Below, one piece after another: positions 53 to 35,256 of a stretch of DNA of 43,882 nucleotides. The first letter of the stretch is position 1. Every line of letters begins with the position of its first letter. The notes beneath the pieces are model-generated. The model did not search any database, was not told where the DNA came from, and saw nothing but the letters and a program-made list of their open reading frames with translations. This stretch comes from Planctomyces sp. (GTDB lineage: Bacteria; Planctomycetota; Planctomycetia; Planctomycetales; Planctomycetaceae). The stretch is from NCBI GenBank assembly GCA_016795105.1, contig JAEUIH010000037.1:1-43882 (forward strand). The letters are read 5' to 3'. A program made the position numbers and the translations under genes.

Positions 53-77
53 GCTCGGGCAGGAATGTCCAAGCTAC
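53..77 (-). repeat. GTAG-type REP-like hairpin (class B1) at the hemL 3' end
   Basis: Read on the minus strand, the element starts GTAG, then stem CTTGGACA, loop TTCC and stem TGCCCGAG. It is a one-base variant of the class B1 hairpins at 27471-27625 and 30345-30442. The hemL stop codon (74-76) is the TAG of the GTAG foot. Beyond the hairpin (bases 1-52) the sequence matches the roughly 45-bp spacer of the 30345 array (ccctgcgccgc, gcagtactcgaa, gggacaagtc), so this is the edge of a longer composite unit cut by the window end. Confidence 0.75.
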
Positions 78-1363
78 GACAGAGCGGCGGCAGCGGCGGC
101 GATGGTTGCGTCAATTTGCTCGTCTGTGTGAACGGCCGAAACAAACATCGCCTCAAACTGACTGCACGGCAGATAGACTCCACGATCCAACATTCCGTGG
201 AACCACTTTGAAAACTTCTTTGTGTCGGACTGAGTCGCCGACGCCAGATCTTTCACCGGTCCGGCTGTGAAGAACAGTGTCAACATACTGCCAACCCGAT
301 TCACACAGGCTGTCACGCCGGCGTTGGTTGCGGCATTCAGGAAACCGCGTTCGAGCCGCTGTCCGAGCACTTCCAGTCGAGGATACGGATTCTCTGCCTG
401 AATGGCTCGCAGCATCGCAATCCCGGCCGCCATCGCGATTGGGTTCCCGGACAACGTTCCTGCCTGATATACCTTACCCACCGGCGAAACACTGTTCATG
501 ATATCAGCACGGCCACCATACGCTCCAACGGGCAGGCCAGCCCCAACGATCTTGCCCAAAGTCGTCATATCAGGGCGAATACCGAACAGTTGCTGAGCGC
601 CCCCGGCTGCGACACGGAATCCAGTCATCACTTCATCAAAAATCAACACAGAACCATGTGAATCGCAAAGGCTTCGCAAAGACTTCAAAAACTGGGCAGT
701 TGGAATCACACATCCCATGTTGCCAACAACCGGTTCCAAAATCACAGCGGCAATCAGATTGCCTTTCTCCCGAAATGCCGACTCCAGTGATTCCACATCA
801 TTATAAGCCAGCACCAGCGTATCTGCGGTGCAACCCGGCGGCACTCCAGGACTCGAAGGAGCTCCCAGTGTTAGCGCGCCGCTGCCTGCCTGCACGAGAA
901 GACTGTCCACGTGACCGTGATAACAGCCGGAGAATTTGACAATCACATTCCTTCCTGTGAAACCCCGAGCAACTCGAATGGCCGACATGGTGGCCTCTGT
1001 GCCCGAATTGACCATTCGAACTTTTTCGATCGATGGAACCATCGAAATGATCAACTCAGCCAGTTCGCTCTCGGCAACGGTCGGAGCACCGAAACTGGTC
1101 CCAGTCTCAGCCGCTGCCTGTATGGCTTGCAGGATCGGAGGATACCCGTGGCCAAACAGGTGTGGTCCCCATGAACCGATATAGTCGATGTAGCGATTGC
1201 CATCGATGTCAAACAGAAACGGCCCCTGACCGCGAGCAATAAAGGGTGGTGTCCCGCCGACAGCCCCAAATGCACGCGCCGGACTATTCACACCGCCCGG
1301 AATCACGCGGCCCGCACGTTCAAATTCTCGTTCACTCAAAGCACGTCGACTTGTATTTTCCAT
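74..1363 (-). CDS. hemL: Glutamate-1-semialdehyde 2,1-aminomutase
   Basis: Cytosolic PLP enzyme of the C5 tetrapyrrole pathway, converting glutamate-1-semialdehyde to 5-aminolevulinate. The 429-residue product has the usual family length and motifs: the N-terminal stretch IPGGVNSPARAF, the cofactor-contact stretch VNSGTEATMSAIRVARG (about 118-134), FSGCYHGHVD (144-153), the PLP-proximal aspartate in FDEVMTGFR (242-250), and the Schiff-base lysine K271 in TTLGKIVGAGLPVGAYGG. The start is ATG 1361-1363 with CAGGG a few bases upstream. It lies downstream of the LRR lipoprotein on the same strand with a 109-bp gap that holds an imperfect GCCTGC/GCAGGC hairpin (about 1426-1451). The stop codon lies inside a REP-like element. 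Identification is secure. Confidence 0.97.
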   Translation of the reverse strand: MENTSRRALSEREFERAGRVIPGGVNSPARAFGAVGGTPPFIARGQGPFLFDIDGNRYIDYIGSWGPHLFGHGYPPILQAIQAAAETGTSFGAPTVAESELAELIISMVPSIEKVRMVNSGTEATMSAIRVARGFTGRNVIVKFSGCYHGHVDSLLVQAGSGALTLGAPSSPGVPPGCTADTLVLAYNDVESLESAFREKGNLIAAVILEPVVGNMGCVIPTAQFLKSLRSLCDSHGSVLIFDEVMTGFRVAAGGAQQLFGIRPDMTTLGKIVGAGLPVGAYGGRADIMNSVSPVGKVYQAGTLSGNPIAMAAGIAMLRAIQAENPYPRLEVLGQRLERGFLNAATNAGVTACVNRVGSMLTLFFTAGPVKDLASATQSDTKKFSKWFHGMLDRGVYLPCSQFEAMFVSAVHTDEQIDATIAAAAAALS

Positions 1364-1472
1364 GACCCTGCCTGATCGCTGTTGAACTTGCCGCAGTACA
1401 TCACCAGTTGGCTTTAAACATCAGACGGCCTGCAGACATTCAGCCGGCCGCAGGCGTTTGACATGCTACCAC

Positions 1473-2825
1473 TTATCGAACGACTTCGATCCCAGGACGA
1501 GCAGCCTCAAGCTTTTCGATACCTTCTGATGTTACTCCGGAATCATTCAGTTTGATCCACTTCAGTGCCGGCAATTGCCCCAGTTGCGCCACACCTTCGT
1601 CGTCGATCTGAGTCCCGGCGATGTTCAGGCGTTCCAAAGCCTTCAGTTTCACGATCGTTGGAACGCAGGCGCTGGTCACTCGTGAAGCCTCAAGATTCAA
1701 TTCTTTCAAAGTACTCAGTCCGGCCAATGCTTCAACTGTCGAATCATCGGACTTGGTTTCCCACAGGCCAAGATAGGTCAGCTTCGACAACACACCGAGT
1801 TTTGCAATTCCCGCTGGTGATGGGATTCGACATTCACTGATGTCGAGATAATCCGCGTTTGGCATCTTGCTGAGCACCTCAATGCCGACATCGTCCAGAG
1901 ACGTACTTCTCAGTTCGAACTGTTCAATCCCCTGAAGCCCCTCAATCTGCTTCAATCCGTCCCCGGTCACGTCCGTTTCACGAATTCTCAGACGCTTCAG
2001 CTTCTGCAGTTTCGCAATATGAACCATTCCGGCATCGGTAATCCGTGTCGCATCAAGCTGAATCGACTCCAGCGTTCCCATCGCACCGATGGACTCAAGC
2101 GCTTTATCCGTGATCGCAGTGTTGTAATTCAGATTGAGAGATTTCAGAGGCAAAGCGACCAGACTGGCTACCCCGGCATCACCCACTTTTGATTTTTCAA
2201 GCTGCAGATCCACAAGGGAGGTCAGGCCTGCCAGATGAGTCAGACCTTCATCGGTGACATTGCTGTTTCGAAGGTCGAGAGCTCTCAGCTTCTTCAGGTT
2301 CTTAAGTTCAGCAAGTCCAGCATCTGTGAATCCACTTCTTCGAAGCCGAATCACTTCGAGGTTTTCCAGACCACCGATCACCTTGAGAGTGACATCGCCT
2401 ACGGCTGAATCAGAGAGATCGACCTGCTTAAGCTTCTTTAAGGTGGCGAGATGCTCCATACCTGCATCCGTCATCCCCGGACCCGAAAATCGAACAACTT
2501 CCGTATTCGGTATTCCGGAGAGGTTCTTCAGCAAAGCAGAGATGTCTTTGTCACTGCTGGTTGAAACTTCCACAACAACGTTGGCCGAATTCCGAGTCAG
2601 AGCAAATTTCGCCCCTTCCAGAGCCGCAATTGCAGTCGGATCTTCCGGAATCACCGGAGGCTTCGAGCCCGCGCCTTCTGGCACAACTGTCGGGGCCGCA
2701 GAATTTCCGGATCCTGAATTCTCCGGACCGGATTCCTGACATCCGGCAATACCGGTTGCCAGAACAGCCGCTGAACACAGAATCAGTTGACGAACACGCG
2801 TTAACGACGATTGAACAACCAGCAT
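1473..2825 (-). CDS. Leucine-rich-repeat lipoprotein (RNI-type LRR)
   Basis: A 450-residue predicted lipoprotein. The N-terminus has basic residues, a hydrophobic core and the lipobox IAGC near residue 29, followed by a Gly/Ser/Pro-rich linker. From about residue 90 to the end it is a run of roughly a dozen 24-residue leucine-rich repeats with the pattern L..L.L..T.ITD.GL..L, the ribonuclease-inhibitor/adenylate-cyclase subtype abundant in planctomycetes. No catalytic domain is visible. I infer a surface or periplasmic protein-binding scaffold; the partner is unknown. GAGGAG lies about 11 bases upstream of the ATG. It is divergent from the Tat oxidoreductase across a 202-bp promoter region. 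Confidence 0.88.
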   Translation of the reverse strand: MLVVQSSLTRVRQLILCSAAVLATGIAGCQESGPENSGSGNSAAPTVVPEGAGSKPPVIPEDPTAIAALEGAKFALTRNSANVVVEVSTSSDKDISALLKNLSGIPNTEVVRFSGPGMTDAGMEHLATLKKLKQVDLSDSAVGDVTLKVIGGLENLEVIRLRRSGFTDAGLAELKNLKKLRALDLRNSNVTDEGLTHLAGLTSLVDLQLEKSKVGDAGVASLVALPLKSLNLNYNTAITDKALESIGAMGTLESIQLDATRITDAGMVHIAKLQKLKRLRIRETDVTGDGLKQIEGLQGIEQFELRSTSLDDVGIEVLSKMPNADYLDISECRIPSPAGIAKLGVLSKLTYLGLWETKSDDSTVEALAGLSTLKELNLEASRVTSACVPTIVKLKALERLNIAGTQIDDEGVAQLGQLPALKWIKLNDSGVTSEGIEKLEAARPGIEVVR

Positions 2826-3027
2826 GGTTCCGAAAACTCCTCAGACATGTTTCGATGAACAGTGGTCGTCAGCATAGGTCCACAGACCATAAATCTCAAC
2901 GAACACAGAATTTGAGCCCCTCGTTTCCCACGGAATCGTTGCCGTTTCGTACTTCCACGCTAACATGGTGGCAATTCGTTCAGGGACGAAATTTTATTGC
3001 TGTCATCCTGCTCATGGGGAAATATTC

Positions 3028-4434
3028 ATGGCAAACAAGTCAAATCGACGTTCATTTTTTGGTCAATCGGCCGCGATTGGTGCCGGGCTCTGGCTCGGAA
3101 CACAATCTCGCCCGCGTGCGATGGCTTCTTCACCGCTTCAGTCACTTGCCGCAGCCTGCATTGGCGTCGGTGGAAAAGGAAGCAGCGACTCCAGCCATAT
3201 TTCCGAAAATGGCGTCGCCCTGGTCGGGCTTTGCGACGTTGATGAACGCACTCTGACAAAGAAGGGGCGTGAGTTTCCGGATGCAGCCAAGTACACAGAC
3301 TTCCGCGAAATGCTGGATGCTCTGGGATCAAAAATTGACATCGTCACCGTCAGCACTCCTGACCACACACATGCTGTCGCGGCCATAAAGGCCATGAAGA
3401 TGAAAAAGCATGTGTACTGCCAAAAGCCTCTGACCTGGTCCATCCATGAAGCCCGCAAGATGCGAGAAGTCGCTGCGGAGATGGGTGTTGTCACTCAGAT
3501 GGGCAATCAGGGCACTTCAGAAGACGGCCTCCGCGAAGCCGTAGAAGTGATCCGATCCGGCGCAATCGGCGACGTGAAAGAAGTCCATCTGTGGACAAAC
3601 CGTCCAATCTGGCCACAAGGCGTTGGTCGTCCAGCAGGTGAAGACCCAATTCCAAAGGAACTGAATTGGGAAGCATGGATCGGCCCAGCTGCAATGCGTC
3701 CTTACAAAGAGGGCGTCTATCACTCATTCAACTGGCGAGGCTGGGTCGACTTTGGAACCGGGGCACTCGGCGATATGGCCTGCCACACCGCCAACATGCC
3801 AGTGATGGCCCTCGAACTGTGGGACCCGATTGCTGTCACCGCGGTTAAGAATCCGGGTGTCTTCGAGAACGAGACGTTCCCGGCAGCGACCACCCTCAAG
3901 TTCGAATTCCCTGAACGAAACGGGCTCGTTCCATGTGCGTTCTACTGGTATGACGGTGGCAATCTGCCAAGCGAAGAGCTGACCGCCAAACTGCCGGAAG
4001 GTTTCCGCAAGAAACTCGACGCTCAGCGACAGGGCAGCCCCAACAAGACCAGTGCGGCGCTTGTGGTGGGCAGCAAAGGTATGCTGTTGTCAGAAAACGA
4101 CTACGGTGCAGAATACACCCTGCTGCCGGAAGGCGACTACAAGGACTTCAAAAAGCCGGAACAGTCGCTCCCACGCATTCCGTTCAAGGGTAATAACGAC
4201 CAGCGACAGAAGTGGGAATTCGTATCATCCATCAAGGGTGAATATAAGCCCGGAACAATGTCCAACTTCCTGTATGCAGGTCGTTTGACCGAGACAATTC
4301 TCGTTGGAAATCTCGCAGTTCGAGCTGGTGAAGGCGAGAGAATTGAGTGGGATGCAAAGAATCTCAAGAGCACCAACCTTCCGGACCTGAACAAGTACGT
4401 TCAGCGCGAATATCGCGAAGGCTGGAGCCTCTGA
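3028..4434 (+). CDS. Gfo/Idh/MocA family oxidoreductase, Tat-exported
   Basis: NAD(P)-dependent sugar or inositol dehydrogenase family; the substrate cannot be read from sequence. I chose ATG 3028 rather than an upstream in-frame codon because it is preceded by gggga and starts a clean twin-arginine signal (NRRSFFGQSAAIGAG). The 468-residue protein has a Rossmann half with glycine-rich ACIGVGGKGSS, the substrate-binding lysine in YCQKPLTW (family E-K-P), and the C-terminal dimerisation/substrate domain with GTGALGDMACHTANMP, whose His is the conserved family residue. The Tat signal implies export of a pre-folded, cofactor-loaded enzyme, a common planctomycete arrangement. It ends at a strong terminator, so it is probably monocistronic. 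Confidence 0.93.
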   Translation: MANKSNRRSFFGQSAAIGAGLWLGTQSRPRAMASSPLQSLAAACIGVGGKGSSDSSHISENGVALVGLCDVDERTLTKKGREFPDAAKYTDFREMLDALGSKIDIVTVSTPDHTHAVAAIKAMKMKKHVYCQKPLTWSIHEARKMREVAAEMGVVTQMGNQGTSEDGLREAVEVIRSGAIGDVKEVHLWTNRPIWPQGVGRPAGEDPIPKELNWEAWIGPAAMRPYKEGVYHSFNWRGWVDFGTGALGDMACHTANMPVMALELWDPIAVTAVKNPGVFENETFPAATTLKFEFPERNGLVPCAFYWYDGGNLPSEELTAKLPEGFRKKLDAQRQGSPNKTSAALVVGSKGMLLSENDYGAEYTLLPEGDYKDFKKPEQSLPRIPFKGNNDQRQKWEFVSSIKGEYKPGTMSNFLYAGRLTETILVGNLAVRAGEGERIEWDAKNLKSTNLPDLNKYVQREYREGWSL

Positions 4435-4478
4435 TCTGACTGCCCACTGACGCGAAAGCGTTATTTTGCTCAGGCAAT

Positions 4479-4515
4479 AGCTGCCGAAACCCCGCAGGTT
4501 TCGGCAGCTTTTTTT
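4479..4515 (+). terminator. Rho-independent terminator after the Gfo/Idh gene
   Basis: A perfect 12-bp stem AGCTGCCGAAAC / GTTTCGGCAGCT with a 7-base loop is followed by seven T residues, starting 45 bases after the oxidoreductase stop. A smaller ACGC-GAAA-GCGT hairpin followed by tatttt lies just upstream (4450-4466). Confidence 0.93.
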
Positions 4516-4739
4516 ATTGACCGAAAGGTTTTGATGCACAGGGGAGCACCCAGAGTCAGCGAAAACCCTGCAAATTCGATGCAATTGCGAGCTTCGGCAG
4601 GACTCATACATTCCAAAACTTCGTCACAACCCTCACATTTTAACTCAACCTCACCACCGAAATAATCCGATCGAACAGAGTAACCGGTGTACCCGGATTG
4701 CCGGTACATTCTGTAAGCACGGTTCGATCGGAACAATCG
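4516..4739. other. Intergenic leader before the giant beta-helix gene
   Basis: This stretch between the terminator and the next start codon is A/T-rich relative to its surroundings and probably contains the promoter of the large surface-protein gene. I cannot pick a convincing -35/-10 pair. Short open frames here on both strands have no recognisable protein character. Confidence 0.4.
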
Positions 4740-7700
4740 ATGAAAACCAAACGCGTTTATGCCACGGCTTGTCTGCTGTTCAGCAGCGTCGCACTATTTT
4801 CCGCGGCCACCAGGACGATCGGGGACGAGCCCGGCAAGGTCCGGCTGTCGTCCTTCGGTTCACAGACTGGAGGCCCGGGAGGAGGCACTGTGCCAACTCC
4901 CATCCCGGACCCGATGAATGGTGCCATGGCACCAGGATTCGCGCCGGGGCAAATGGTGCAGGGACCGGGCATGAACGGCCCGTATCCGGTTCCGGACAAC
5001 ACGGCCCCATACTTCGAACGAAGCTTCGGAGCTACTCAGTACATTCCAAACGAATCCTTCATGCCGAAGCAGCCGTTTGGACCTGCACTGATGTTCGAGT
5101 CGAACATCGACAATGGTCTCGGATTCAATTCCGGTTACCATCGCCTCAACGCTCGCATCCCTTATCACATCGTGCCTGACACGACTGTGATGATTGGCGA
5201 CCTGTCAGGTTCGGTGACGAACGACGGCGATCCGGTCTACAATTACGGTCTCGTCTACCGTAACTACGACGCCGCTCTGAATCGAATCTTTGGCTGGAAC
5301 GTGTTCGGCGACTACGAGAAGGGGCAGCAGACCGGTGAGTTCTACCGGATGTCGGCTGGCTTCGAATCGCTCGGCAAGTATATCGACTGGCGTGCCAACG
5401 GATACTTCATCCTCGGAGATGACTCGTATCTGCTCAACAGCCAGCTGACCGGCGACCATGTACTCGGCGGAAACAACCTGTTCCGTCTTCGTGATGAGTC
5501 TTATCAGAATGCATACTCAGGCGGTGACCTCGAAGTCGGGGGCCCTCTGCCACTGCTTGGCCGATATGGTCTCGACATGTATGTGGGAGGCTATGTCCTT
5601 GGAAACGACAACGGCTACGACACCGTTGGTTTCCAGGCTCGCTGGCAGGCGATGATCACAGAATCAATCACTGTCAACACGTACCTCACCACTGACGACA
5701 CCTTCGGAACCAACAGTTGGGTCAGCATGGCGTTTACGTTCCCGAACTACAAGGATCGTCGCATTCTGCGACCGAATAGTAGTGTTCGTGAACGTCTACA
5801 GGACCCAGTCTATCGCTCAAACCGAATTCACCAGAACATCGATAACTCACTGGCTCGAGAAGCCATTATCAATAATGGTGAAGACGTCAACGGAAACGGA
5901 ATCCTTGATCCGGGTGAAGACATCAATGGTGATGGTGTTCTGTCTACCGGAACCGGGTTGCCTTACTTCATCACTTATGTTGACCCGAATTCGACAGCAA
6001 CCGGTGTTGGTACCTTTGAAAACCCATACGGTACCTTCCAGCAGGCTGCAGCTGGAAACAATGCAGGAATTGACATCATCCGAGTCCTTCCGCGAACGGA
6101 TGATACCGGAACAAACCTCACTGCACTCGGCGGCATCCAGCTGTTCGATGATCAGTACCTGATCGCCGGCAACCGTGACTTCACATTGTTCACTGTGAAC
6201 GGCGAAGACTGCATTATCCCGGGAACTCCAAACACCAGCGGACTCGGCCCATTGATCTCTGACCCAGCCATGCTGGCCGGAGGCAGCGTCGTCCAGCTCG
6301 CCAACAACAATACCATCTTTGGTATGCGAATCAGTGGTGCGAATGCAGCCGGAACTGTCTTTGGAAACGGAGTCTCCAACGCCGCTCCAATTACAGATGT
6401 GCGACTCAGCAGCAACACCTTCACCAACTACAACAACGGTGCTGAACTGTCCGATGTCTCGGGCCGAGTCATCATCGAACAAAACAACTTCTCCGGTCTG
6501 GCCGGAACATCTCAGAATGGACTGCTGCTCACTGCTGCCGCAGGGCAAACTGTTGAATTGCTGGTTGAAGAAAACCAGGCAACGAACAATCAGCAGGTCG
6601 GCCTGAGCATCATCGCTGAGCCAGGTGCAACGATCAATGCCAACAATCCAACGGGTACTCTCCCAACCGGGATCGTCGGAAACACGGCCACCGGAAACGG
6701 TACCGGAATCCATGTCGAAGCCCGTACCGGAGCTGTCATCAACGCAGTTGTTGAAGACAACACGACCAGCGGTAACACTGCCGACGGGCTGGCAATGGTG
6801 GCTGATGGCGGTACCTTCAACCTCAGCAGCCTGTCCAACAACCTTTTCAGTAACAATACCGGGAACGGTGTGTTCATCCACTATCTGAACGGTGGAACAT
6901 TCACAGCGGTTTCTGAAGATGCAGACGGTGACGGAAGCCTTGACGCCGGTGAGGACCTGAACGGCAACGGAACACTGGACTTCGGAATTGTCTCAAATGC
7001 AGCGAATTCCAACGGCATCGCTGGTATTTGTATCTTCGGCGAAGATGCAAGCACCGGAACATTTGATATCGGTGGCCCGCAGACGGCTCTTGGAAACTCG
7101 TTTATCGGAAACGTCGGAGCCGGTATCGCTGTTGACCTGAGAGACACAGCAACCGCTCAGATGGATACTGTCAACAATATCATCTCTTCGTCATCGGTTG
7201 CGAACTCAGCCCCAACACTGACCTTCGTCCTCGACTTTGTCGAAGCGGGCCAGACGATCGTGGACCCATTCGGTGGTGGAACATTCACACCGTTTGACGT
7301 GACAAGTTTTGGCTTTGCAGCTTCTGAATATGACACTGTCACCAACGCAGTTCTGGAGACAGTTCGGCAGCACTACTACAACATCCCAACCTCTGGTGTT
7401 GACAGCCGCAGCCCAATGCCGGACGGACAACAGCTGGATGTGAACTTTGTCATCGGAGACCTTGGAACAGCTCCAACGATTGGTGCCACAGAATTCTACA
7501 CAACAGTGATTGGATCCGCTCCCACGGCACCAGCCCTTGGCGTAGCCTTCCTCAGTGCTGTTCGAGATGCGTCAGGAGCTGGACCGCTTCCAGGATTCAC
7601 CAACGGTTCACACGTAGCATCAGTTTACTCTAACCAAATCAATGCTCTCGGAGGATTGACTCCAGCGGATATAACAATCCCGGACGAGCCACCTGGGGTC

Positions 7701-12585: not shown

Positions 12586-12658
12586 GTAGCAGGCATTCTC
12601 CGAATGCCGTCCGCCAACACCCAGCTCAAGCGGACGGCACATGGAATGTGCCTGCTAC
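12586..12658. repeat. Inverted pair of class A GTAG hairpin repeats
   Basis: The left copy (12586-12614, plus strand) begins GTAGCAGGCATTC, loop tcc, then GAATGCCGTCCGC. The right copy (12630-12658) is the same element on the minus strand but with stem GGCACAT / ATGTGCC instead of GGCATTC / GAATGCC. The two 29-base copies are therefore an imperfect inverted repeat separated by 15 bases, and each copy is itself a hairpin. Confidence 0.85.
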
Positions 12659-12680
12659 AGGCATTCACCGAATGCCGTCC
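12659..12680 (+). repeat. Partial class A hairpin repeat
   Basis: AGGCATTC, loop acc, GAATGCCGTCC: a class A copy without its full GTAG foot, abutting the right copy of the preceding inverted pair. Confidence 0.65.
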
Positions 12681-12745
12681 TCCAGTTTAACGGCTAGCCG
12701 CAGGCGACTGAGTCCACCCCTGCCGACACCCCTGCCCGAATCGCA

Positions 12746-12774
12746 GCGGACGGCACATGGAATGTGCCTGCTAC
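12746..12774 (-). repeat. Class A GTAG hairpin repeat (GGCACAT variant)
   Basis: An exact match over 29 bases to the element at 12630-12658, on the minus strand (GTAGCAGGCACAT, loop tcc, ATGTGCCGTCCGC when read on that strand). Confidence 0.85.
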
Positions 12775-17139: not shown

Positions 17140-17658
17140 ATGCAGGTTTGGATCATCAACATATTTATCGTCGTCTTTGCAGTGTTCATGTGGGGCTGGG
17201 ACTATCCGGCCGATCTTCCCATTCAACGATTTGTGCGAAGAATCTGCGAGCCGTTTGCCTTTATGGGACTCTGGCACGGCTGGGCAATGTTTGCTCCGGA
17301 ACCCATCTACATCTCACGCTGGGTACGCGCGGTCATTTCATTCGGAGATGGATCGATCGAAATCTGGGAACCGCTGGGGCCGGTCTCTGACCAGAAACTC
17401 GTCAACAGTTTGTATGTTCGAAGTTTCAAGTTTCAACATTCTGTGGTCTCTGGCCAGAATCCGGTGCTGTATGAACCACTGTGTCAGTTCCTTGCACGAC
17501 AGGCGAACGAGCATACTCGTCCTGTGACAACGATCGAGCTCTATCGAGACTATCGATACGTTCAGCCATACGGAGCAGACACCGTTTATTCTCCGACACG
17601 TTCGGTCTGCTTCTATCAGTACCAGCACAGGGAACTCACATCAGATGCCACTGTCTGA
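17140..17658 (+). CDS. Small membrane-anchored protein, partner of the HTTM protein
   Basis: 172 residues with one N-terminal membrane segment (VWIINIFIVVFAVFMWGW). The motif GLWHGWAMFAPEP (43-55) recurs in uncharacterised proteins encoded next to HTTM/DoxX-like membrane proteins. The remainder looks like a soluble periplasmic domain (IEIWEPLGPVS, TTIELYRDYRYVQP). ccggga precedes the ATG. Its last 14 bases overlap the start of the HTTM gene, so the two are translationally coupled and probably form a complex. I do not know its function. Confidence 0.82.
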   Translation: MQVWIINIFIVVFAVFMWGWDYPADLPIQRFVRRICEPFAFMGLWHGWAMFAPEPIYISRWVRAVISFGDGSIEIWEPLGPVSDQKLVNSLYVRSFKFQHSVVSGQNPVLYEPLCQFLARQANEHTRPVTTIELYRDYRYVQPYGADTVYSPTRSVCFYQYQHRELTSDATV

Positions 17659-18532
17659 CATCCTTGCCGCGTGGAATCAGTTTTTCCATGCACCGGTGTG
17701 CTGTGCTTCGCTGGTCCTGTTTCGGATTTTGACCGGATCAATTCTGGTCACCAATGCAGTGCTGTTGATCCCGCTGACCGAGGAGTACTTCGGCGAAGCA
17801 GGTGCATGGAATACCAAACGCTGGCGGGAGCAATTTGGAAACCGTCGGTTCAGCATCCTGACTTTTCTTCCGGACTCCACAAATTCATTTCGTATTTTGC
17901 TTGCCGTGCATCTCACTTCGGCTTTGGGATTCCTGTTTGGATATCTGTTTCACCTGAGCGCTCTCGTCACGTTTCTGACACTTGTCTCCATCCACCACCG
18001 AAACACGTTTATTCTCTCCAGCGGTGACACATTGTTGAGGATCTTTACGTTCCTCAGTATTTTCAGTGATGCCAGTGCTGCGGTGTCCGTCGATTCCTGG
18101 CTGGCCGAGAACACCTTTGCAGAGTTCCCCCTTGTGGCAGCATGGCCAATACGGTTGATTCAACTGCAAATGAGCATTGTCTATCTGCGAACCGTATTCT
18201 GGAAGCTCAGAGGTCGCCGTTGGCGCGACGGAACGGCCGCATGGTACCCGCTCTGGGTGGAATCGTACGTCCGATTTCGTCCTCCCGCCTGGATGCTGAC
18301 TCGCGGCACAATCCGCTTCGCCACCTGGGGCACCCTGATTGCCGAGGTTGCACTGGGAACCCTGATCTGGATTCGAGAATTCCGTTACCCGGTTCTGGGT
18401 TCCGGAATTCTCTTGCATCTGATCTTCGACCTGATCCTGAATCTCCAGTTTTTCAGCTGGATCATGATTGCAGGACTCGTTCTATTCGTTGCTCCCGAAG
18501 ACGTCGTCAGCCTGCTGAGTCGTATACTGTAG
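17645..18532 (+). CDS. HTTM-domain membrane protein (vitamin K gamma-carboxylase-like)
   Basis: 295 residues with about six to seven membrane helices. The stretch HHRNTFILSSGDTLLRIFTF and the later LQLQMSIVYL / FWKLRGRRWRDGTAAWY match the HTTM family, the bacterial relatives of vitamin K-dependent gamma-glutamyl carboxylase. Many bacterial members are short and lack the C-terminal region of the animal enzyme, and this is one of those, so carboxylase activity should not be assumed. The start overlaps the preceding gene and has AGGGA upstream. A perfect 9-bp hairpin begins at its stop codon. Confidence 0.87.
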   Translation: MPLSDILAAWNQFFHAPVCCASLVLFRILTGSILVTNAVLLIPLTEEYFGEAGAWNTKRWREQFGNRRFSILTFLPDSTNSFRILLAVHLTSALGFLFGYLFHLSALVTFLTLVSIHHRNTFILSSGDTLLRIFTFLSIFSDASAAVSVDSWLAENTFAEFPLVAAWPIRLIQLQMSIVYLRTVFWKLRGRRWRDGTAAWYPLWVESYVRFRPPAWMLTRGTIRFATWGTLIAEVALGTLIWIREFRYPVLGSGILLHLIFDLILNLQFFSWIMIAGLVLFVAPEDVVSLLSRIL

Positions 18533-18553
18533 AACGATTGTCCCCAATCGTTC
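18532..18553. terminator. Convergent-gene hairpin 1
   Basis: Perfect 9-bp stem GAACGATTG / CAATCGTTC with loop TCCC, starting on the last base of the HTTM stop codon. There is no T-tract. It probably terminates or protects the 3' end of the membrane-protein operon. Confidence 0.6.
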
Positions 18554-18589
18554 ACCTCCCACTGCCGCTTGAATCGCAACAAACACGAT

Positions 18590-18611
18590 GATCAATTGAG
18601 GACAATTGATC
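18590..18611. terminator. Convergent-gene hairpin 2
   Basis: Perfect 9-bp stem GATCAATTG / CAATTGATC with loop AGGA, 12 bases beyond the stop of the minus-strand dehydrogenase. Stem and loop lengths equal those of hairpin 1, with one hairpin per convergent gene. Confidence 0.6.
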
Positions 18612-18622
18612 TACTATTGAAG

Positions 18623-27269: not shown

Positions 27270-27445
27270 GTAGGATGGGCATTCCTGCCCGTCTCGCGCT
27301 GCACTAAGTAGGATGGGCATTCCTGCCCGTCTCGCGCTGCACTAAGTAGGATGGGCATTCTTGCCCGTCTCGCGCTGCACTAAGTAGGATGGGCATTCTT
27401 GCCCGTCTCGCGCTGCGCTAAGTAGGATGGGCATTCTTGCCCGTC
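27270..27445 (+). repeat. Array of five class B2 GTAG hairpins, exact 38-bp period
   Basis: Copies at 27270-27293, 27308-27331, 27346-27369, 27384-27407 and 27422-27445. Each has foot GTAG, stem GATGGGCA, loop TTCC or TTCT, stem TGCCCGTC (or the equivalent with T-to-T change in the loop). The 14-base linkers (tcgcgctgcactaa, with one base change) are also conserved, so the 38-bp unit as a whole was tandemly amplified. Confidence 0.9.
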
Positions 27446-27470
27446 GACGTCATGGTAAAGCGCAGGGATG

Positions 27471-27625
27471 GCTCGGGCAAGAATGCCCAAGCTACAAAAA
27501 AGGGGCAGGGGCGGCTCGGGCAGGAATGCCCAAGCTACAGAAAAGGGGCAGGGATGGCTCGGGCAAGAATGCCCAAGCTACAAAAAAGGGGCAGGGGACG
27601 GCTCGGGCAGGAATGCCCAAGCTAC
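27471..27625 (-). repeat. Array of four class B1 GTAG hairpins, about 43-bp period
   Basis: Minus-strand copies at 27471-27495, 27514-27538, 27557-27581 and 27601-27625, each reading GTAG, stem CTTGGGCA, loop TTCC or TTCT, stem TGCCCGAG. The linkers are similar to one another (ggggcaggg, aaaaaa). The array faces the class B2 array, giving a head-to-head arrangement, and its first unit follows the stop codon of the small membrane-protein gene by about 11 bases. Confidence 0.9.
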
Positions 27626-28011: not shown

Positions 28012-28785
28012 TCAAACTCCCAGCAGCTCACCAAGAAGGTTACTCGACGGATGCGGGTGGCCCTTATATTGGCGGAATGCCTCTCCGTGAGTCACCCCGA
28101 TTTCGTGGCCTCGCTGCCGACTCCAGCGTTCACTGGCATCCATATATTCGTCAATTCCATGCTGCCGACGCAGCCATTCTCGCTGACTTGCATGGCAGGC
28201 GACCGCCCGATGTTTCTCAGCAAACTCATTGGTGACATCCACGATAAAGTCGACAGACTGACGATTGCCGAAGTGATCCATGCCCTCGACAGCATCTACA
28301 TAATACAGCCACGGAATCCGGACTGTTGGCGGGGCAGGGTCCCATTGACAGGTCTTGTAGTTGGGCACGGACGCATTAAAACAGGCATCCCGAACCAGTG
28401 CACTTGTGATCTCGTGATCATGCATATAGTCAACCGGTGGGGCCGTTAAAATCAGGTGTGGCTGTTTCCGGCGGACAAATTCTGTCACCCGATGACGGCT
28501 ATCGTTGTCGAAGCAAATTGACAGGTCACGAAACTCAAGGCACGTATATTCGGCCCCCAGGATGTCTGCCGCTGCTTTCGCTTCCAACCGACGAATCGCT
28601 GCAATTTCCTCCGCACTATGCTCTGCGCTGCCTCCGTCCCCTGGAGTCATGGTTGCAACTGAAATCTGGCACCCCAGTTTACGCAGCCGAAGCAGAGTAC
28701 CAGCACATTGAAATTCGATATCGTCCGGATGCGCATGAATCGCGAGGACTCGCAGTTCACTGACAGGAACTGGTGTGTTGCCCAT
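28012..28785 (-). CDS. PIG-L (LmbE) family deacetylase
   Basis: 257 residues. Zinc-binding motif AHPDD (17-21) near the N-terminus and the second metal-site motif YMHDHEITS are both present, along with TPGDGGSAEHSAEEIAAIRRLEAKAAADILGA, the family's characteristic helix. The family removes N-acetyl groups from GlcNAc-type substrates, including the bacillithiol and mycothiol precursors and GlcNAc-PI. The substrate here is not determinable and no bacillithiol glycosyltransferase gene is adjacent. Length is as expected and both catalytic regions are intact. Confidence 0.92.
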   Translation of the reverse strand: MGNTPVPVSELRVLAIHAHPDDIEFQCAGTLLRLRKLGCQISVATMTPGDGGSAEHSAEEIAAIRRLEAKAAADILGAEYTCLEFRDLSICFDNDSRHRVTEFVRRKQPHLILTAPPVDYMHDHEITSALVRDACFNASVPNYKTCQWDPAPPTVRIPWLYYVDAVEGMDHFGNRQSVDFIVDVTNEFAEKHRAVACHASQREWLRRQHGIDEYMDASERWSRQRGHEIGVTHGEAFRQYKGHPHPSSNLLGELLGV

Positions 28786-29016
28786 GGATCGTATCTCGCT
28801 CGTTCAGAAAAGGGGTGGGATTCAGTGGGATGGTGAGATTCCGGAGGCTAACGATTCTGATTTTGATTGCAACATTCCGCCAACCCTGCCATTGATCACG
28901 ATCGGAGGTATTCCGGCAGACTCGTATTTTCCTGATCGGCGGTTTTGGCTAGAAAACGCTCGAATGACGGAGTCAAATGGCGGTGACTCCAAAGAAGTCT
29001 TCAAGGATGGACGGAA

Positions 29017-30333
29017 ATGCAGAATTTGAAACGACTTTTTCTGACAACAACTCTGGTTGGCCTAATGGCCGGTTGCGGCAGTGATTCAGGTTCCCCGGCT
29101 GCTCAGACCGGGACCGAAACCGAAACTGGCAGCGGATCATCAGAAACTTCAACAGGATCTGCCCAGGCGCGAGTGACAGCCTCAATTCCAGGTCCTGCAA
29201 CGATAACCGACCAGCCGACATCAGACGAACCATCAGCCAGCAACTCTCCGGATGCCGCGGCAAAGGAATCAAAGCCAGCCGAGGACGAAGTGACTCGCAT
29301 TCTGAGAGAAATCCAGCAACTGCGTGTCGCAGCCGCCCCCGCCGATGTTGAGACCGCCAGGCAAATCCGTCGTCAGCGAAACGAAGAGATCATCGAAAAG
29401 GCGACCAACGTTCTGCGTCTCACGATGGAAGACAAGGCCCGGGAACCTCAGTTCAATCAGGCAATCGGCCAATTGCTTGAAGCTCGCTTCCAGATGGCAC
29501 TCACTGGCACTGAAGATGACATCCAGCTGCTTCATGAAGATGTCGAAGCACTTTCAAAACGTGACCCAAAATCTCCAGCGGCGGCCGAAGGTGTCTATCA
29601 GCTTGCTCGACTCGCTCACACCAAGGCCGGTCTCCTTGGAAAGTCTCAGCCAGTCTGGTTCGAGACCTTGTCACGCTGGGCCCGAGAATTCGCTGACCGA
29701 TTCCCGGAACAAAACAAACGAGCCGTAACACTTCTGTTCGGTGCCGCTCGAAGCTGCGAACTTCACGCTCTAGCAACGACTGATGCAGAATTGTCCGGGC
29801 GCCTCATGACCGAATCAAAACTGTGCTACACGACTCTCGCCGAAAAGTTCTCTACATCTCCTCAGGGTCAGGAAGCGGTCGCCGTACTCCGCCGAATGGC
29901 AGTTGTCGGTCAACCCCTGACTCAGTTTGAAGGCCCGACCATCGATGGCGGATTCGTGTCGGTCAGCGAGTTCTCCGGACGCCCAACACTGATCTACTTC
30001 TGGTCTGCTGAAGACGAAGACTTTACGAAAGAAGTTCTGCCTGCGATCCAGAAGATTCGAACGCAACTCGCCGACTCGCGCCTCCGAATGGTTGGCGTGC
30101 CTCTCGATGATGACGAAACTGAACTTGAGGCATTCATGGAGCAGAACTCACTCCCCGGGCAGCAAATCTTCTTCACGAACCCGGAACAACGCTCATGGAA
30201 CAGCCCCTTGATCCGCTTCTGGGGTATCTCCAAAACGCCCTCCATCTGGGTGCTCGACAATCAGACAAATGTGATCAGCACAAACGTCGAAACCAGTAAG
30301 CTGGTTCCAACTCTCCAGAAGGTCGTCCGGTAA
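29017..30333 (+). CDS. Lipoprotein with C-terminal thioredoxin-like (TlpA/redoxin) fold lacking the active-site cysteines
   Basis: 438 residues. Lipobox LMAGC (cysteine at 20) follows a short hydrophobic signal, then a Ser/Thr/Glu linker to about residue 85, a helical TPR-like middle (about 90-280), and a redoxin domain from about 290 (GQPLTQFEGPTIDGGFVSVSEFSGRPTLIYFWSAEDEDF broken into strands). Where TlpA/AhpC proteins have W-C-x-x-C, this has FWSAEDEDF with no cysteine. The cis-Pro loop is kept (SKTPSIWVLD). It is probably a structural or binding protein in the periplasm rather than a thiol oxidoreductase. A strong SD (aaggatggacgga) precedes the ATG. Confidence 0.88.
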   Translation: MQNLKRLFLTTTLVGLMAGCGSDSGSPAAQTGTETETGSGSSETSTGSAQARVTASIPGPATITDQPTSDEPSASNSPDAAAKESKPAEDEVTRILREIQQLRVAAAPADVETARQIRRQRNEEIIEKATNVLRLTMEDKAREPQFNQAIGQLLEARFQMALTGTEDDIQLLHEDVEALSKRDPKSPAAAEGVYQLARLAHTKAGLLGKSQPVWFETLSRWAREFADRFPEQNKRAVTLLFGAARSCELHALATTDAELSGRLMTESKLCYTTLAEKFSTSPQGQEAVAVLRRMAVVGQPLTQFEGPTIDGGFVSVSEFSGRPTLIYFWSAEDEDFTKEVLPAIQKIRTQLADSRLRMVGVPLDDDETELEAFMEQNSLPGQQIFFTNPEQRSWNSPLIRFWGISKTPSIWVLDNQTNVISTNVETSKLVPTLQKVVR

Positions 30334-30344
30334 CCGAAGCAAAT

Positions 30345-30652
30345 GTAGCTTGGGCATTCCTGCCCGAGCACTTCCCTGCGCCGCCGCAGTAGTACTCGAA
30401 GCAGGTTGGGACAAGTCGTAGCTTGGGCATTCCTGCCCGAGCACTTCCCTGCGCCGCGGCAGTAGTGCTTGAAGCGGGCCGGGACGGGCAGGAATGCCCA
30501 TCCTACTTAGCGAGCACTTCCCTGCGCCGCCGCAGTAGTACTTGAAGCGGGATGGGACGGGCAGGAATTCACATCCTACTTAGTGAGCACTTCCCTGCGC
30601 CGCGGCAGCAGTACTTGAAGCGGTCTGGGACGGGCAGGAATGCCCATCCTAC
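30345..30652. repeat. BIME-like composite array of GTAG hairpins
   Basis: Two plus-strand class B1 hairpins (30345-30369, 30418-30442) are followed by three minus-strand class B2 hairpins (30483-30506, degenerate 30556-30579, 30629-30652). Between them is a conserved spacer of about 45 bases (ttccctgcgccgc, gcagtagtactt, gaagcgg). The unit is thus bounded by opposed hairpins with GTAG at the outer ends. It starts 11 bases after the redoxin-like gene stop and its right end enters the next gene. Confidence 0.88.
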
Positions 30653-32086
30653 TTAGTGCAACGCGGGACGGGCAGGGACGCCCTGTTGAATTTGTTCCAG
30701 ACGAATTCTTGCGTGTTCTGCCCATGGGCCGCGACTGTCGTGCTGCAGATACTGCTGCCAGTACGTGCCGGCTTCATCCAGCCGCTCCATCTGTTCCAGC
30801 AGTTGAGCATAATGCAGCAGGGCATCCGGATTCGCTCGATGAATGGAGATCGCAGTTACAAGCGATTCTTCAGCCGCATCCAGCAATCCGGCTTCGGATT
30901 GAAGGCAACCCAGCTGAGTCCACGCTTCGATGAAATCGGGAGCAAACTCGATCGCACTGTGATATCGTTCAATGGCTGCATCGCGGCGGCCAATTCGGTA
31001 AAGCGAATCTGCCAGATGAAAGTTGACTTCCGCCGGGTCAGGAAACACAGCTCGTTCCGCAGGTCCTCCAAACTCATCTTCTCGAAGCAGGAACTGTTCG
31101 GAAACCAACAGGCTCATTGAATTTCGAAACGCATTCACGGCCGATTCAAATTCCGATTCTTCAGCAAGTCGACAACCTTCGTGAAACCACTCGTCGGCGT
31201 TCCAGTCCTTCATTCGCCGATCACCCTGTTGAAGCCGAGCTTCGGTGATCGAAATTGAAATGGGCCCTTCGTCTGAATCCGTTTCAGAACTTTGAATCGC
31301 TGTCGAATTCAACTCCATCTCTCCCTTACCGTGAATACGATCCATCTGTTCTCCGTCCGGATTCACATCCGCCGGAGGGTTCACGACCGACAACGGGCTG
31401 GCAGCTCCATCAAAGTCCAGAAGCCTCTGCCCTGTTTGCGGATGAATCACTCCATAGGCATCACGCAGCAGTACATTTTCATCCTGTACGAGAATTGTGA
31501 GTTGAGCCAAAGAGCGATCGGTCCCCGCTAAAGTCTGTCCAAGCTCCGCAAGACTCTTCTCAATCGTCTGCGGGGAAACTCCCTGATCAAGCAATGAAGC
31601 GAGCCGTCTTGCACTGGCAACTTCCCGATAATCGAAGTACGGCAGACGACAAACACGACGCACAGGGCGAATCAAACCCAGCCGAGCCCAGCGTCGAATC
31701 AGGCGAACTGGAATGTCCAGCAGCCTCGACAACATCGCCGGAGTATAAGCCTTCTGAATCTCTTCCCGCCGTTCATTCAATCCCAGCAAGTGCAGCCAGT
31801 CTGACTCCGCAACGACCCGAATCTCACTTCCGTCCGCCAGCAATTGAAGTGACTGACGAAGTTTCTGAGACGTTGCCCCGTCCGCCTCCAAAGGCCAGCC
31901 TTCTTCTCCAATCACCAACATTGTGGTTGCACTGGAAACCGACTGAATTGCTCGACCTCCAAACTGATCCACCAGTCGAAAGGCTTCTCGGTGCGTCATC
32001 GAGGCGAGCGTTCCTGTAAATGCGACACACTCTCCAGTCAATGGGAGCGAATTCCCGGCAACGGGGATCGAAATCTCCGCAAGCAT
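30653..32086 (-). CDS. BRCT - MerR-type HTH - TPR fusion protein
   Basis: 477 residues from ATG 32086; the only upstream alternative (TTG 32218) has no better support. Residues about 14-102 form a BRCT domain like that of NAD-dependent DNA ligase (GECVAFTGTLASMTHREAFRLV, QFGGRAIQSVSSATTMLVIG). About 113-182 is a MerR-type winged helix (AYTPAMLSRLLDIPVRLIRRW, LPYFDYREVASARRLASLLDQGVSP). The last ~180 residues are TPR repeats (HLADSLYRIGRRDAAIERYHSAI, QLGCLQSEAGLLDAAEESLV). BRCT suggests binding to DNA ends or phosphopeptides, the HTH sequence-specific DNA, the TPR a partner. I infer a nucleoid or DNA-damage regulator. The last nine codons and the TAA stop derive from a class B2 hairpin repeat. 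Confidence 0.85.
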   Translation of the reverse strand: MLAEISIPVAGNSLPLTGECVAFTGTLASMTHREAFRLVDQFGGRAIQSVSSATTMLVIGEEGWPLEADGATSQKLRQSLQLLADGSEIRVVAESDWLHLLGLNERREEIQKAYTPAMLSRLLDIPVRLIRRWARLGLIRPVRRVCRLPYFDYREVASARRLASLLDQGVSPQTIEKSLAELGQTLAGTDRSLAQLTILVQDENVLLRDAYGVIHPQTGQRLLDFDGAASPLSVVNPPADVNPDGEQMDRIHGKGEMELNSTAIQSSETDSDEGPISISITEARLQQGDRRMKDWNADEWFHEGCRLAEESEFESAVNAFRNSMSLLVSEQFLLREDEFGGPAERAVFPDPAEVNFHLADSLYRIGRRDAAIERYHSAIEFAPDFIEAWTQLGCLQSEAGLLDAAEESLVTAISIHRANPDALLHYAQLLEQMERLDEAGTYWQQYLQHDSRGPWAEHARIRLEQIQQGVPARPALH

Positions 32087-32378
32087 TTGATGCGAATCTA
32101 CTTGCGTCAAATCTTCCGAATCGTGTGAAGTCACAAAAGAGGCTCTCGCTTTGCAGAAACAGGGAACCTGAGTCGGGAAACCCCCGGCTGTTTCGTTCGA
32201 AGATACCGTCGAAAACAAGTGAAGGGTAGCAATCAGACCATCTACTGCTATAAGAGACAGAATTCAGCGTCCTGAACGGAAAGATCTTCCGAACAGGGGG
32301 TTCGGGAGATTTGGGAAAATTGCTCTCGGATTTTTCGTTTTATGCTCGACAACCATCGATATTGAGGACCTTCCAGCT

Positions 32379-33620
32379 ATGTCTCGCCTTCAGACCTCCG
32401 ACCCAACCATCTGGGAAGCCATTTGCCACGAACGAACTCGGCAAACCGATGGCCTGGAACTGATTGCGTCCGAAAACTATACCAGCGCAGCAATTATGGA
32501 AGCGGCTGGAACGGTGCTGACCAACAAGTATGCCGAAGGGTATCCAGGCAAACGGTATTACGGCGGCTGCGAACATGTTGACACAGTTGAATCGATCGCT
32601 CGGGATCGAGTCCGTCAATTGTTCGGCGCTGAACACGCGAACGTTCAGCCGCATGCCGGATCTCAGGCCAACATGGCCGTCTATTTTACTGTGCTCAATC
32701 CTGGCGACACAATCCTGGCGATGGACCTGTCCCATGGAGGTCACCTTACTCATGGCATGCATCTCAATTTCAGCGGCAAGCTCTACAAGACCGTTCATTA
32801 CGGCGTTCGAAAAGATGATCATCGAATTGACTTTGATCAGGTGGCTCAGCTCGCGAAAGAACACAAACCGAAGCTGATCATCGCAGGCGCCAGCGCTTAT
32901 CCGCGTGAAATCGATCATGCAAAGTTTGCGGATATCGCTCGTCAGAACGGCGCTCTGCTGATGGTTGATATGGCTCACTATGCAGGGCTCGTTGCCGGGG
33001 GTGTTCATAACAGCCCCGTCCCGGTCGCGGACTTCGTCACGTCGACATCTCACAAGACTCTCCGAGGCCCTCGGTCTGGTTTTGTTCTTTGTCGTGAACA
33101 ATACGCCAAAGACCTCGATCGAAGTGTGTTTCCTGGAATGCAGGGAGGGCCTCTGATGCACATCATCGCTGCAAAGGCAGTCTGTTTCGGAGAAGCTCTG
33201 CAGCCGGACTTTAAGGTATATGCTCAACAGGTTGTTAATAACGCTCGTGTTCTCGCAGAGACTCTGCTTGCCGGCGGACTTCGGCTCGTTTCCGGCGGTA
33301 CCGACAATCATCTCATGATGTGCGATGTCACGGCAATTCAACTGTCCGGAAGCATTGCCGAAAAGGCGCTCGACAAAGCGGGTATCACCGTCAACAAGAA
33401 CATGATCCCTTACGATCAGCGAAAGCCCATGGACCCCAGCGGTGTCCGAATCGGCACCGCGGCTCTGACCACCCGAGGCATGAAGACCGACGAAATGAAG
33501 AGGGTAGGGCAGTGGATCCTGACGGCTCTTCGAGGTGCATCCGATGATGCACAACTCGAAAAAGTCCGCAAGGAAATTGCTGAGTTTGCTCGTTCGTTCC
33601 CGGTCCCGGGGATCGGTTAA
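32379..33620 (+). CDS. glyA: Serine hydroxymethyltransferase
   Basis: 413-residue PLP enzyme interconverting serine plus tetrahydrofolate with glycine plus 5,10-methylene-tetrahydrofolate; the main source of one-carbon units. Motifs: [11 protein letters not shown] (27-37), [20 protein letters not shown] (49-68), [25 protein letters not shown] with the PLP-contacting Asp and His, and Schiff-base K226 in [14 protein letters not shown]. Length is normal. A tataag sequence about 120 bases upstream could be a -10 element. It is convergent with the aldolase gene, and the two stop codons share bases. Confidence 0.97.
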
Positions 33621-34381
33621 GTGTCTGTCTGAGTCTTTAGGTCTTTCAACATCCTTCTGGCTCCCTGACCGACATACAAGATATCAACCCCCGCAACAAG
33701 AAGTGAATAGCCCTGGGTTTGCCAGGGCTTCACCGCTTCGGCGGTGACACCAAAGTAGCCCAGCGGCATTCCGGCTTTCCGACAAACCTCTGTCACTCGA
33801 TTGATGGCTGCAATCACTTCCGGATCGTCAATCTGCCCCATCTTGTTGTAGCTCGCCGAAAGGTCATATGGACCAAGCAAGACAGCGTCGACACCTGGTA
33901 CGGCCACGATTTCTTCTATGTTTTCAACCGCCAGCCGATGTTCAGCCTGAACAACCACAGAAATCTGCTCATTCGCGGATTGAACATATTCGGCAAAGCG
34001 AAAGCCGTAGCCATGAGCGCGAGCAAGTCCAACGCCTCGATTGCCTTCAGGAGCATATCGAGCATACCGAACCACCTCCGCAGCCTGCTCCGCGCTGTTC
34101 ACCTGCGGAACGATCACGCCCTGAGCCCCCACGTCCAGCACACGCTTGATCTCGGCTTCGTTGCAGGAACCGACCCGGACAAGACATGCGGCCTTTCCAC
34201 CGACCGCCTGCAGAATTCCCTGAATGTCAGGAATGGTCAGCGCGCCGTGCTCCGCATCCACAAAAAGCCAGTCAAAGCCGATTTCCGATAACACTTCCGC
34301 GGTCGCTGGCGACGGTAATGTGACCATCGTTCCCAAAAGTGGTTCACACTGTCTCAGTCTCTGACGAAATCCTGGCTGCAT
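33617..34381 (-). CDS. HpcH/HpaI family aldolase (class II, metal-dependent)
   Basis: 254 residues from ATG 34381 (GCGAGG eight bases upstream; a GTG at 34384 is the alternative). It cleaves 2-keto-3-deoxy-type acids to pyruvate plus an aldehyde. Family signatures are [45 protein letters not shown] with the pyruvate-binding Arg, the metal-ligand Glu in [17 protein letters not shown], and the [11 protein letters not shown] loop. The exact substrate (KDG-type, dihydroxyheptenedioate or 5-keto-4-deoxyglucarate) is not resolvable. Convergent with glyA: its TAA and the glyA TAA overlap within TTAA at 33617-33620. Confidence 0.92.
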
Positions 34382-34565
34382 CACGCGGTCCTCGCTCTTT
34401 GCGGAATGTTATCTATCAAGAATACAGGTTGCTGAACTGCCGGCGGTTGATTGTCGGCTGACACTTTAACAAACAGATACTTCTGCACACTGGTGTTTTC
34501 ATTCAGCTCGGCCAATACTATCCTTGTATGCAAAGAATCTTGAGTGCACAGCCGGGAGTCAATCA

Positions 34566-34841
34566 ATGAACCGCGATGAACTGATCAAAACACTGCAAAC
34601 GCTGCACAAGGAACTTGCAGGGGCTCAGAACATCGATTCAGAAACGATGAAGCTCCTGCAGACTCTGACGGCCGATATTCAGAAAGTCCTGGATTCAGAT
34701 TCTGCTCCGGAAATCGCTGATTCCGATCAGTCCCTCTCAGAACGCCTACGCGAAGCGGCAATCGAGTTCGAAGTCCGACATCCTCAGCTCGGCGGTCTCA
34801 TCGAACGCATCACTGACGGACTCGCCGGTCTCGGGATTTAA
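34566..34841 (+). CDS. DUF4404 family protein
   Basis: 91 residues from ATG 34566, chosen because gggag lies eight bases upstream and it matches the expected N-terminus of the family (MNRDELIKTLQTLHKELAG). The protein is nearly all helical, acidic in the middle (DSDSAPEIADSDQSLSERL), and ends in LGGLIERITDGLAGLGI, the conserved DUF4404 tail. Function is unknown; there are no catalytic residues or signal peptide. A class A hairpin repeat starts two bases after its stop. Confidence 0.85.
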   Translation: MNRDELIKTLQTLHKELAGAQNIDSETMKLLQTLTADIQKVLDSDSAPEIADSDQSLSERLREAAIEFEVRHPQLGGLIERITDGLAGLGI

Positions 34842-34843
34842 AA

Positions 34844-34872
34844 GTAGCAGGCATTCTCCGAATGCCGTCCGC
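34844..34872 (+). repeat. Class A GTAG hairpin repeat directly after the DUF4404 gene
   Basis: GTAGCAGGCATTC, loop tcc, GAATGCCGTCCGC: identical over 29 bases to the copy at 12586-12614, and on the coding strand of the gene it follows. Confidence 0.88.
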
Positions 34873-35194
34873 AAACGCGCAATCTACGCCACCAAAAAAC
34901 CAGCGCGGATTCGCTTCGCTCAGCCGCAACTCAGTTCAGTTCGAAGAATGGAGCAAGTGTTTAAAGACTGGACGTGTGGAGGGCGCTGGTCTTCGGTGAA
35001 TGGGTTTCCGTTTGTTCGGTGTGTCCCGTGGTTACCAATCGCACTGGCTACGCGCTGAATGCAGCCGGATTCAACTCATCGCCATCTTCGCTGCGCAAAA
35101 CGACAGCACCATACAATTTATGCGACTCGCCGTAGAAACCTCTGTGGCAGGAAAAGGATTCAACTGCGAGTCGTACAAATCGCACCACCATGGC
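34873..35194. other. Non-coding stretch between repeat copies
   Basis: About 320 bases with no gene I can support. The one longer open frame here (from 35000) runs antisense into proS and includes repeat sequence. It lies in a convergent region with class A repeats on both edges. Confidence 0.5.
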
Positions 35195-35256
35195 GCGGAC
35201 GGCACATGGAATGTGCCTGCTACTTTGGGGACGGCACATGGAATGTGCCGGCTGCT
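35195..35256 (-). repeat. Two tandem class A hairpin repeats after proS
   Basis: Minus-strand copies at 35195-35223 (intact, GTAG foot, stem GGCACAT / ATGTGCC) and 35229-35256 (foot changed, agcagccGGCACAT). They lie within two bases of the proS stop codon, in the sense orientation of proS. Confidence 0.85.

Follow-up and report, generated by a model that had tools for sequence, protein, structure and literature searches.

What are the short hairpins with a GTAG foot that lie scattered between positions 54 and 35255 of this planctomycete-like DNA, and in which folded form are they conserved? The window (the whole stretch analysed, 43,882 nucleotides from the start of contig C310) had been described in an initial annotation as carrying three classes of repetitive extragenic palindromic (REP) elements, and the stems quoted for them were all located at 54–35255: CTTGGGCA/TGCCCGAG for B1, GATGGGCA/TGCCCGTC for B2, and GGCATTC/GAATGCC together with GGCACAT/ATGTGCC for A. 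Classes A, B1 and B2 are indeed present, but a further family, C (18529–18614), had been missed. Family A has the layout GTAGCA GGCA NNN TCC N'N'N' TGCC GTCCGC; family B reads GTAG, XY T GGGCA, TTCC or TTCT, and TGCCC G Y'X', with XY being CT in B1 and GA in B2; and family C reads GTAGA.C.ATTG TCCT CAAT.G.T. We hold, with a probability of about 0.85, that these features are REP hairpins, mostly arranged as head-to-head doublets (REPINs, REP doublets forming hairpins) or as arrays derived from REPINs, of REP-associated tyrosine transposase (RAYT; TnpA-REP, Y1/HUH) systems in a planctomycete-like genome.

The genome comprises 8.9 Mb in 391 contigs. Neighbouring hairpins were compared in a sample of 1.28 Mb (14% of the genome), which is non-random, its contigs having been picked for REP or RAYT content and for length. 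Convergent (head-to-head) neighbours lying within 200 bp of each other never shared the same 5'-arm stem type: 0 of 40 pairs were homotypic for A, 0 of 34 for B and 0 of 3 for C, where shuffling gave means of 9.9 for A and 16.0 for B. Tail-to-tail neighbours were homotypic in 1/26 (A), 0/6 (B) and 0/4 (C) cases, and same-strand tandem neighbours in 6/7 (A) and 90/97 (B). Genome-wide, strict patterns recovered 55 A and 68 B REPINs. None of the 52 A REPINs with readable stems was homotypic (13.8 expected; 0 of 200,000 shuffles reached zero), and when a single REPIN was taken per locus the count was 0/40, with 10.3 expected. The 52 combinations were CAT/TTC (22), CAT/GAC (13), CTC/GAC (9), GAC/TTC (3), CAT/CTC (2) and three with rare alleles. 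For B, the 50 listed of the 68 strict REPINs were judged by eye, and all 50 were heterotypic (CT with GA in 48, CG with GA in one, GT with GA in one; two of the 50 share an end). The strict REPIN patterns CAT/CAT and CT/CT had no match in the whole genome. Head-to-head partners in families A, B and C thus follow a near-strict rule of carrying different stems. B1 and B2, and the two A forms, had been correctly recognised as variants with paired changes; their role as opposite head-to-head partners was overlooked.

A REPIN may fold as two small hairpins (the 'clover') or as one long hairpin in which the partners pair with each other. We aligned 25 A REPINs, 24 from the sample with spacers of 19–21 bp and one from the window. 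Under the two-hairpin structure 99.1% of the cells were paired (82.4% in shuffles), and the covariation score was 0.464 compared with 0.149 after shuffling, a value attained by none of 500 shuffles, which ignore kinship among copies. Both sides of a pair had changed in 66 cells and one side alone in none; one-sided intermediates, such as G.U, were seen in 0/350 cells of the A stems. Under the REPIN-long hairpin only 85.5% of the cells were paired (90.6% in shuffles), with no both-side changes, and none of the 500 shuffles paired worse. For 20 B REPINs, 92.2% of the cells were paired as two hairpins and 80.2% as the long hairpin. The clover fold, bindable by a RAYT, would be the form protected by selection, and the REPIN-long hairpin not, since covariation maintains pairing within each small A hairpin and opposes it between the partners. 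The claim that stem differences occur in pairs held in the part of the genome that was sampled (14%), and the refutation by unpaired differences did not come about; a caveat is the third pair of the B stem, which is a T.G wobble on the GTAG strand rather than a Watson–Crick pair, and which is retained there in 19/20 cases in helix 1.

The elements of the window are as follows.

54–77, minus strand: B1 REP GTAGCTTGGACATTCCTGCCCGAG, one base off, with the GTAG foot at 74–77 (minus strand).
12586–12614, plus strand: A REP, stem TTC/GAA.
12630–12658, minus strand: A REP, stem CAT/ATG, head-to-head with 12586–12614, the two making one REPIN (12586–12658).
12660–12679, plus strand: footless A hairpin body, TTC/GAA, loop ACC, a remnant.
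12746–12774, minus strand: A REP, stem CAT/ATG.
18529–18553, plus strand: C REP GTAGAACGATTGTCCCCAATCGTTC, whose foot gives the TAG stop of the open reading frame (ORF) 17645–18532.
18590–18614, minus strand: C REP GTAGATCAATTGTCCTCAATTGATC, heterotypic head-to-head partner of 18529–18553.
27270–27445, plus strand: five B2 REPs in tandem, period 38 bp.
27472–27625, minus strand: four B1 REPs in tandem, period 43–44 bp, head-to-head with the B2 array at 27270–27445.
30345–30441, plus strand: two B1 REPs, period 73 bp.
30483–30652, minus strand: three B2 REPs, of which the second is degenerate, period 73 bp, head-to-head with the B1 pair at 30345–30441.
34844–34872, plus strand: A REP, stem TTC/GAA.
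35195–35223, minus strand: A REP, stem CAT/ATG.
35227–35255, minus strand: A REP, CAT/ATG, with the degenerate foot GCAGCC.

By family, in pattern and fuzzy searches, B thus occupies 54–77, 27270–27625 and 30345–30652, A occupies 12586–12774 and 34844–35255, and C occupies 18529–18614. The A elements are ordered with TTC forward and then CAT reverse. The contig opens inside a B element, and the partner of the B1 REP at 54–77 would fall beyond the contig start. Other contigs, C19, C25, C26 and C60 among them, also have A or B repeats at their very start, as would be expected of assembly breaks. A 9-bp tandem repeat, CGGATCAGA, at 43136–43234 of the window is unrelated to the REPs.

The same hairpins recur throughout the genome. 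Strict patterns matched 637 times for B and 381 times for A, and since the reversed A and B patterns, used as a control over the whole genome, gave no match, these hairpins are not due to chance. In the sample, the A stem alleles (n = 109) were CAT/ATG (38), TTC/GAA (29), GAC/GTC (22), CTC/GAG (12) and others (8), and the B stem types (n = 190) were GA/TC (91), CT/AG (85), GT/AC (4) and others (10). Family C and a fourth family, D, were rarer, with 15 and 13 copies, respectively. The foot is fixed within a family, being GTCG instead of GTAG in D, and the loops are mostly of the TCC or TTCC type. The clusters are mostly extragenic: those within a mechanically called ORF of at least 150 amino acids numbered 1/31 for A, 5/46 for B, 1/8 for C and 0/9 for D. 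The arrays of A mostly repeat the entire REPIN, with 1 bp between feet and a period of 80 in several (for example, contig C33, 21344–21662). In those of B, such as 27270–27625 of the window, it is mostly the single REP that is multiplied on either side, and the period, about 30–103 bp, varies from array to array. The 12 bases preceding the outer feet were A-rich in the sample, with A at −3 in 36/43 cases for family A and A at −2 in 46/66 for family B; these bases may reflect a preferred target or belong to a longer foot.

The foot can also supply a stop codon. On the minus strand, the TAG of the GTAG foot at 74–77 ends a hemL-like ORF (74–1363, minus strand), which matches TIGR00713 nearly end to end (608 bits, profile positions 2–420 of 423). 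An open ORF ran into 26 outer feet of the sample, and 23 of these feet were in the frame that stops it (p = 9e-9). This use of the foot was considered as a new finding and rejected as such, as it is already in the accessible part of Di Nocera 2013 (PMC3733652).

The identification as REPs had been accompanied by the expectation of at least two families with matching RAYTs. There are in fact at least four families, A, B, C and D, and four RAYT-like genes, each beside its own family: contig C42 for A, C350 for B, C353 for C and C177 for D. A Pfam Y1_Tnp search of the genome (E 0.001) gave nine matches, including those in C42, C353 and C177, and a protein search with one RAYT grouped the four genes together. 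All four matched NF047646 (REP_Tyr_transpos) at 63.6, 60.2, 62.4 and 50.5 bits. The best solved relative of the RAYT profile in the PDB was 4er8, the E. coli TnpArep (E 9e-6), which was also the top Foldseek match (E 6e-6) of the predicted A-RAYT structure (mean predicted local distance difference test score, pLDDT, 88). The HUH residues N135, H136 and H138, and Y196, the putative catalytic tyrosine, were invariant across 22 aligned proteins. Identity of the other RAYTs to the C RAYT does not exceed 46%, and identity to the A RAYT is 31–45%. There is one gene of each kind, with no near-identical copies, which are a usual, not strictly required, trait of IS200/IS605 elements.

The surroundings of these genes match the assignment. 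Three A REPINs follow directly on the 3' side of the A RAYT, the TAG of the first foot being the stop codon of the gene; the right-hand feet are degenerate in two of the three. The B RAYT is flanked at either end by both B1 and B2, and the C RAYT at either end by C REPs; family D (GTCGTGGATCGCTCCGCGATCC) likewise flanks the D RAYT at either end and also occurs within the reading frame of that gene. Within this last ORF (L069, 2574–3416, minus strand, contig C177) two inverted D hairpins were observed; apparently the repeat of this family entered its own RAYT gene, and the frame was kept. Three results count against the identification. Pfam Y1_Tnp at E 0.001 misses the B RAYT; all four proteins fall under the 80-bit cut-off of NF047646, so that judged from their sequences they are related to this equivalog and are not members of it as curated; and the A RAYT has REPs on the 3' side only, its contig extending just 174 bp upstream. 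Each RAYT would bind the foot and hairpin of its own family as single-stranded DNA, cut beside the hairpin and copy or move the doublet, and local tandem duplication would later build the arrays.

Relatives of these RAYTs were looked for in named genomes, where 340 of 585 stretches were confirmed and the best 80 kept. These 80 are mostly from Planctomycetota, with some from Verrucomicrobiota and Poribacteria, which is why the genome is called planctomycete-like. At least two similar GTAG- or GTCG-footed hairpins were present in 59/80 of the stretches, compared with 0, 1 and 0 of 80 in three base shuffles. None of 39 relatives matched the strict REPIN patterns of A and B; the families are not thereby absent, because the genome G002 carries a B variant that the strict pattern misses. 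The RAYT segments of two relatives (L156 and L190) contain a stop codon, and some of the RAYT copies look decayed.

Why, then, are the partners unlike? We weighed the possibility that in this lineage REPIN partners are selected to be unlike, so that any two stem alleles may pair but never two alike; covariation within hairpins and anti-covariation between them would then mean that the RAYT acts on the clover and that the long hairpin is an avoided dead end. We place this a little below even odds. Several observations weigh against the clover as the protected form and against a strict partner rule. The long hairpin was the lower-energy DNA fold in 24/24 A and 23/23 B REPINs, despite the mismatches, and RNAalifold also picked it. 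Two-hairpin covariation was weak in B, where 6/500 shuffles scored as high inside each half, the B1/B2 contrast itself being paired; as most B columns are invariant, B says little alone. One A pair, in contig C13, was near-homotypic (CTC forward, CGC/GAG reverse, spacer 91 bp), and the neighbours in family D looked homotypic, in a search whose fixed pattern is blind to other stems. Elsewhere, homotypic pairs occurred at 30 of 58 RAYT-flank loci, and with about half of the loci containing such pairs the partner rule is not required for a system of this type. These 58 are the loci with head-to-head pairs among 110 (80 + 30), a set that is not fully independent (L219 is the genome of the window, L148/L220 and L155/L221 are alike, and L244/L245 have overlapping hairpins). 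That heterotypy switches the energetically preferred fold was rejected, because the long hairpin stays lowest. What heterotypy does is trim its median energy advantage, from 29.0 to 15.3 kcal/mol in A and from 32.5 to 20.4 kcal/mol in B, and shorten its longest unbroken helix, from a median of 29 to 11 bp in A and of 26 to 16 bp in B.

A founder effect would need no selection at all: each family would have spread from a master REPIN whose ends already differed, like the Y/Z units of the E. coli bacterial interspersed mosaic elements (BIMEs). We regard this as possible, at less than even odds. Family B fits it well, being essentially one fixed pair, CT with GA (48/50 listed), and in the same-genus genome G002 (L224) a B-RAYT relative, 64% identical, has REPs of the CT and GA types at its flanks, most of the GA ones with a GTAC foot, so that the B heterodimer probably predates the species. 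In family C one side was always AACG (3/3 head-to-head pairs). Family A is what a founder effect must explain, with its four common alleles, five heterotypic combinations and no homotypic one among 52 strict REPINs. Even if the combinations are counted as the sole independent events, 5/6 of the heterotypic and 0/4 of the homotypic were seen (6/252 = 0.024). Moreover, one end switches its allele within single arrays and the pair is still heterotypic (contigs C26, C33, C210 and C350). As to cause, we give selection about even odds in A, and lean towards inheritance in B and C.

Of similar standing to the founder effect is the explanation, suggested in the accessible part of Di Nocera 2013 (PMC3733652), that homotypic REPINs are removed by selection against long perfect inverted repeats (through deletion, SbcCD cleavage or replication stalling), the stem differences serving to break the palindrome. 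With identical partners the longest unbroken helix would reach a median of 29 bp in A (now 11 bp) and of 26 bp in B (now 16 bp), and about 13–15 kcal/mol would be added. Where along the stem the partners differ depends on the family (top in A, base in B, middle in C), so that the trait shared by the families is non-identity itself. If palindromes were avoided, homotypic pairs elsewhere might be expected to have longer spacers. They do not: the medians were 47 bp for homotypic and 66 bp for heterotypic spacers (one-sided p = 0.48, 58 RAYT-flank loci), and palindrome avoidance through longer spacers was rejected. Homotypic pairs with only 12–18 bp between hairpins were found at L155. Five genomes with A-RAYT relatives gave 18 long-spacer REPIN matches, which were inspected by eye: 14 were homotypic, one nearly so and three heterotypic, namely one in G043 and two at the G041 RAYT; long spacers may hold other hairpins, and not all of the 18 are adjacent partners.

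A main role of the hairpins in RNA, as terminator-like or translation-damping structures or in protecting 3' ends, with mobility only as their history, is improbable: many do lie at gene 3' ends (of 116 outer feet, 23 give the stop of a mechanically called ORF and 32 more lie within 60 bp past an ORF end), but Rfam returned no match in the window at gathering scores, the A stems changed without the one-sided intermediates noted above, and every REP family sits with its own RAYT.

The mismatched stems of the partners are a clue to which fold evolution protects, and family A, whose four alleles combine with one another but essentially never with themselves, makes it easier to tell the two folds apart by covariation. 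Such a family also offers ready substrates for a bench test. In addition, a planctomycete-like genome containing four RAYT/REP families and about 1,000 strict A and B hairpin copies is now documented.

Much of this has precedent. REP heterodimers, the SbcCD explanation, the TAG stops provided by feet and the alternative of long hairpin and clover are already known. Di Nocera 2013 (PMC3733652) named Planctomycetes among the hosts of GTAG-tagged REP families, and our elements resemble those families in the GTAG foot, the short stem-loop, the head-to-head and tail-to-tail dimers, the heterotypic stems, the clusters and the TAG stop. Heterodimers of REPs were reported there with the remark that the preference 'has no obvious explanation'. 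The present A family differs in its four interchangeable stems without self-pairing, for which no counterpart was found in the accessible part of that paper; nor did that part contain a count of covariation within and between partners such as the one made here, and none was found in the portions of the open-access literature that were searched.

Like the REPINs of Pseudomonas fluorescens SBW25 (Bertels and Rainey 2011, PMC3116915, in its accessible part), those described here are inverted doublets with a cognate RAYT and two possible folds, long hairpin and clover. The GI REPINs of SBW25 are described as symmetrical, and their compensatory changes run the length of the long hairpin, whereas here the partner stems are systematically unlike and the long hairpin shows no covariation. 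Use of the clover by the RAYT over the long hairpin was proposed in that work and left unsettled. The E. coli BIMEs (Y with Z1/Z2) and TnpAREP (PMC8266576, PMC2817692), as far as their accessible text goes, offer a parallel in the RAYT gene placed between two different REPs, in the essential GTAG and in an irregular stem, which corresponds here to the T.G wobble of B. Modified REPs keep their complementarity in the part of Nunvar 2010 (PMC2817692) that was available. The E. coli REP types y, z1 and z2 differ in length (35, 29 and 37 nt in the available part of PMC8266576), whereas the stems described here are of equal length and differ by paired substitutions.

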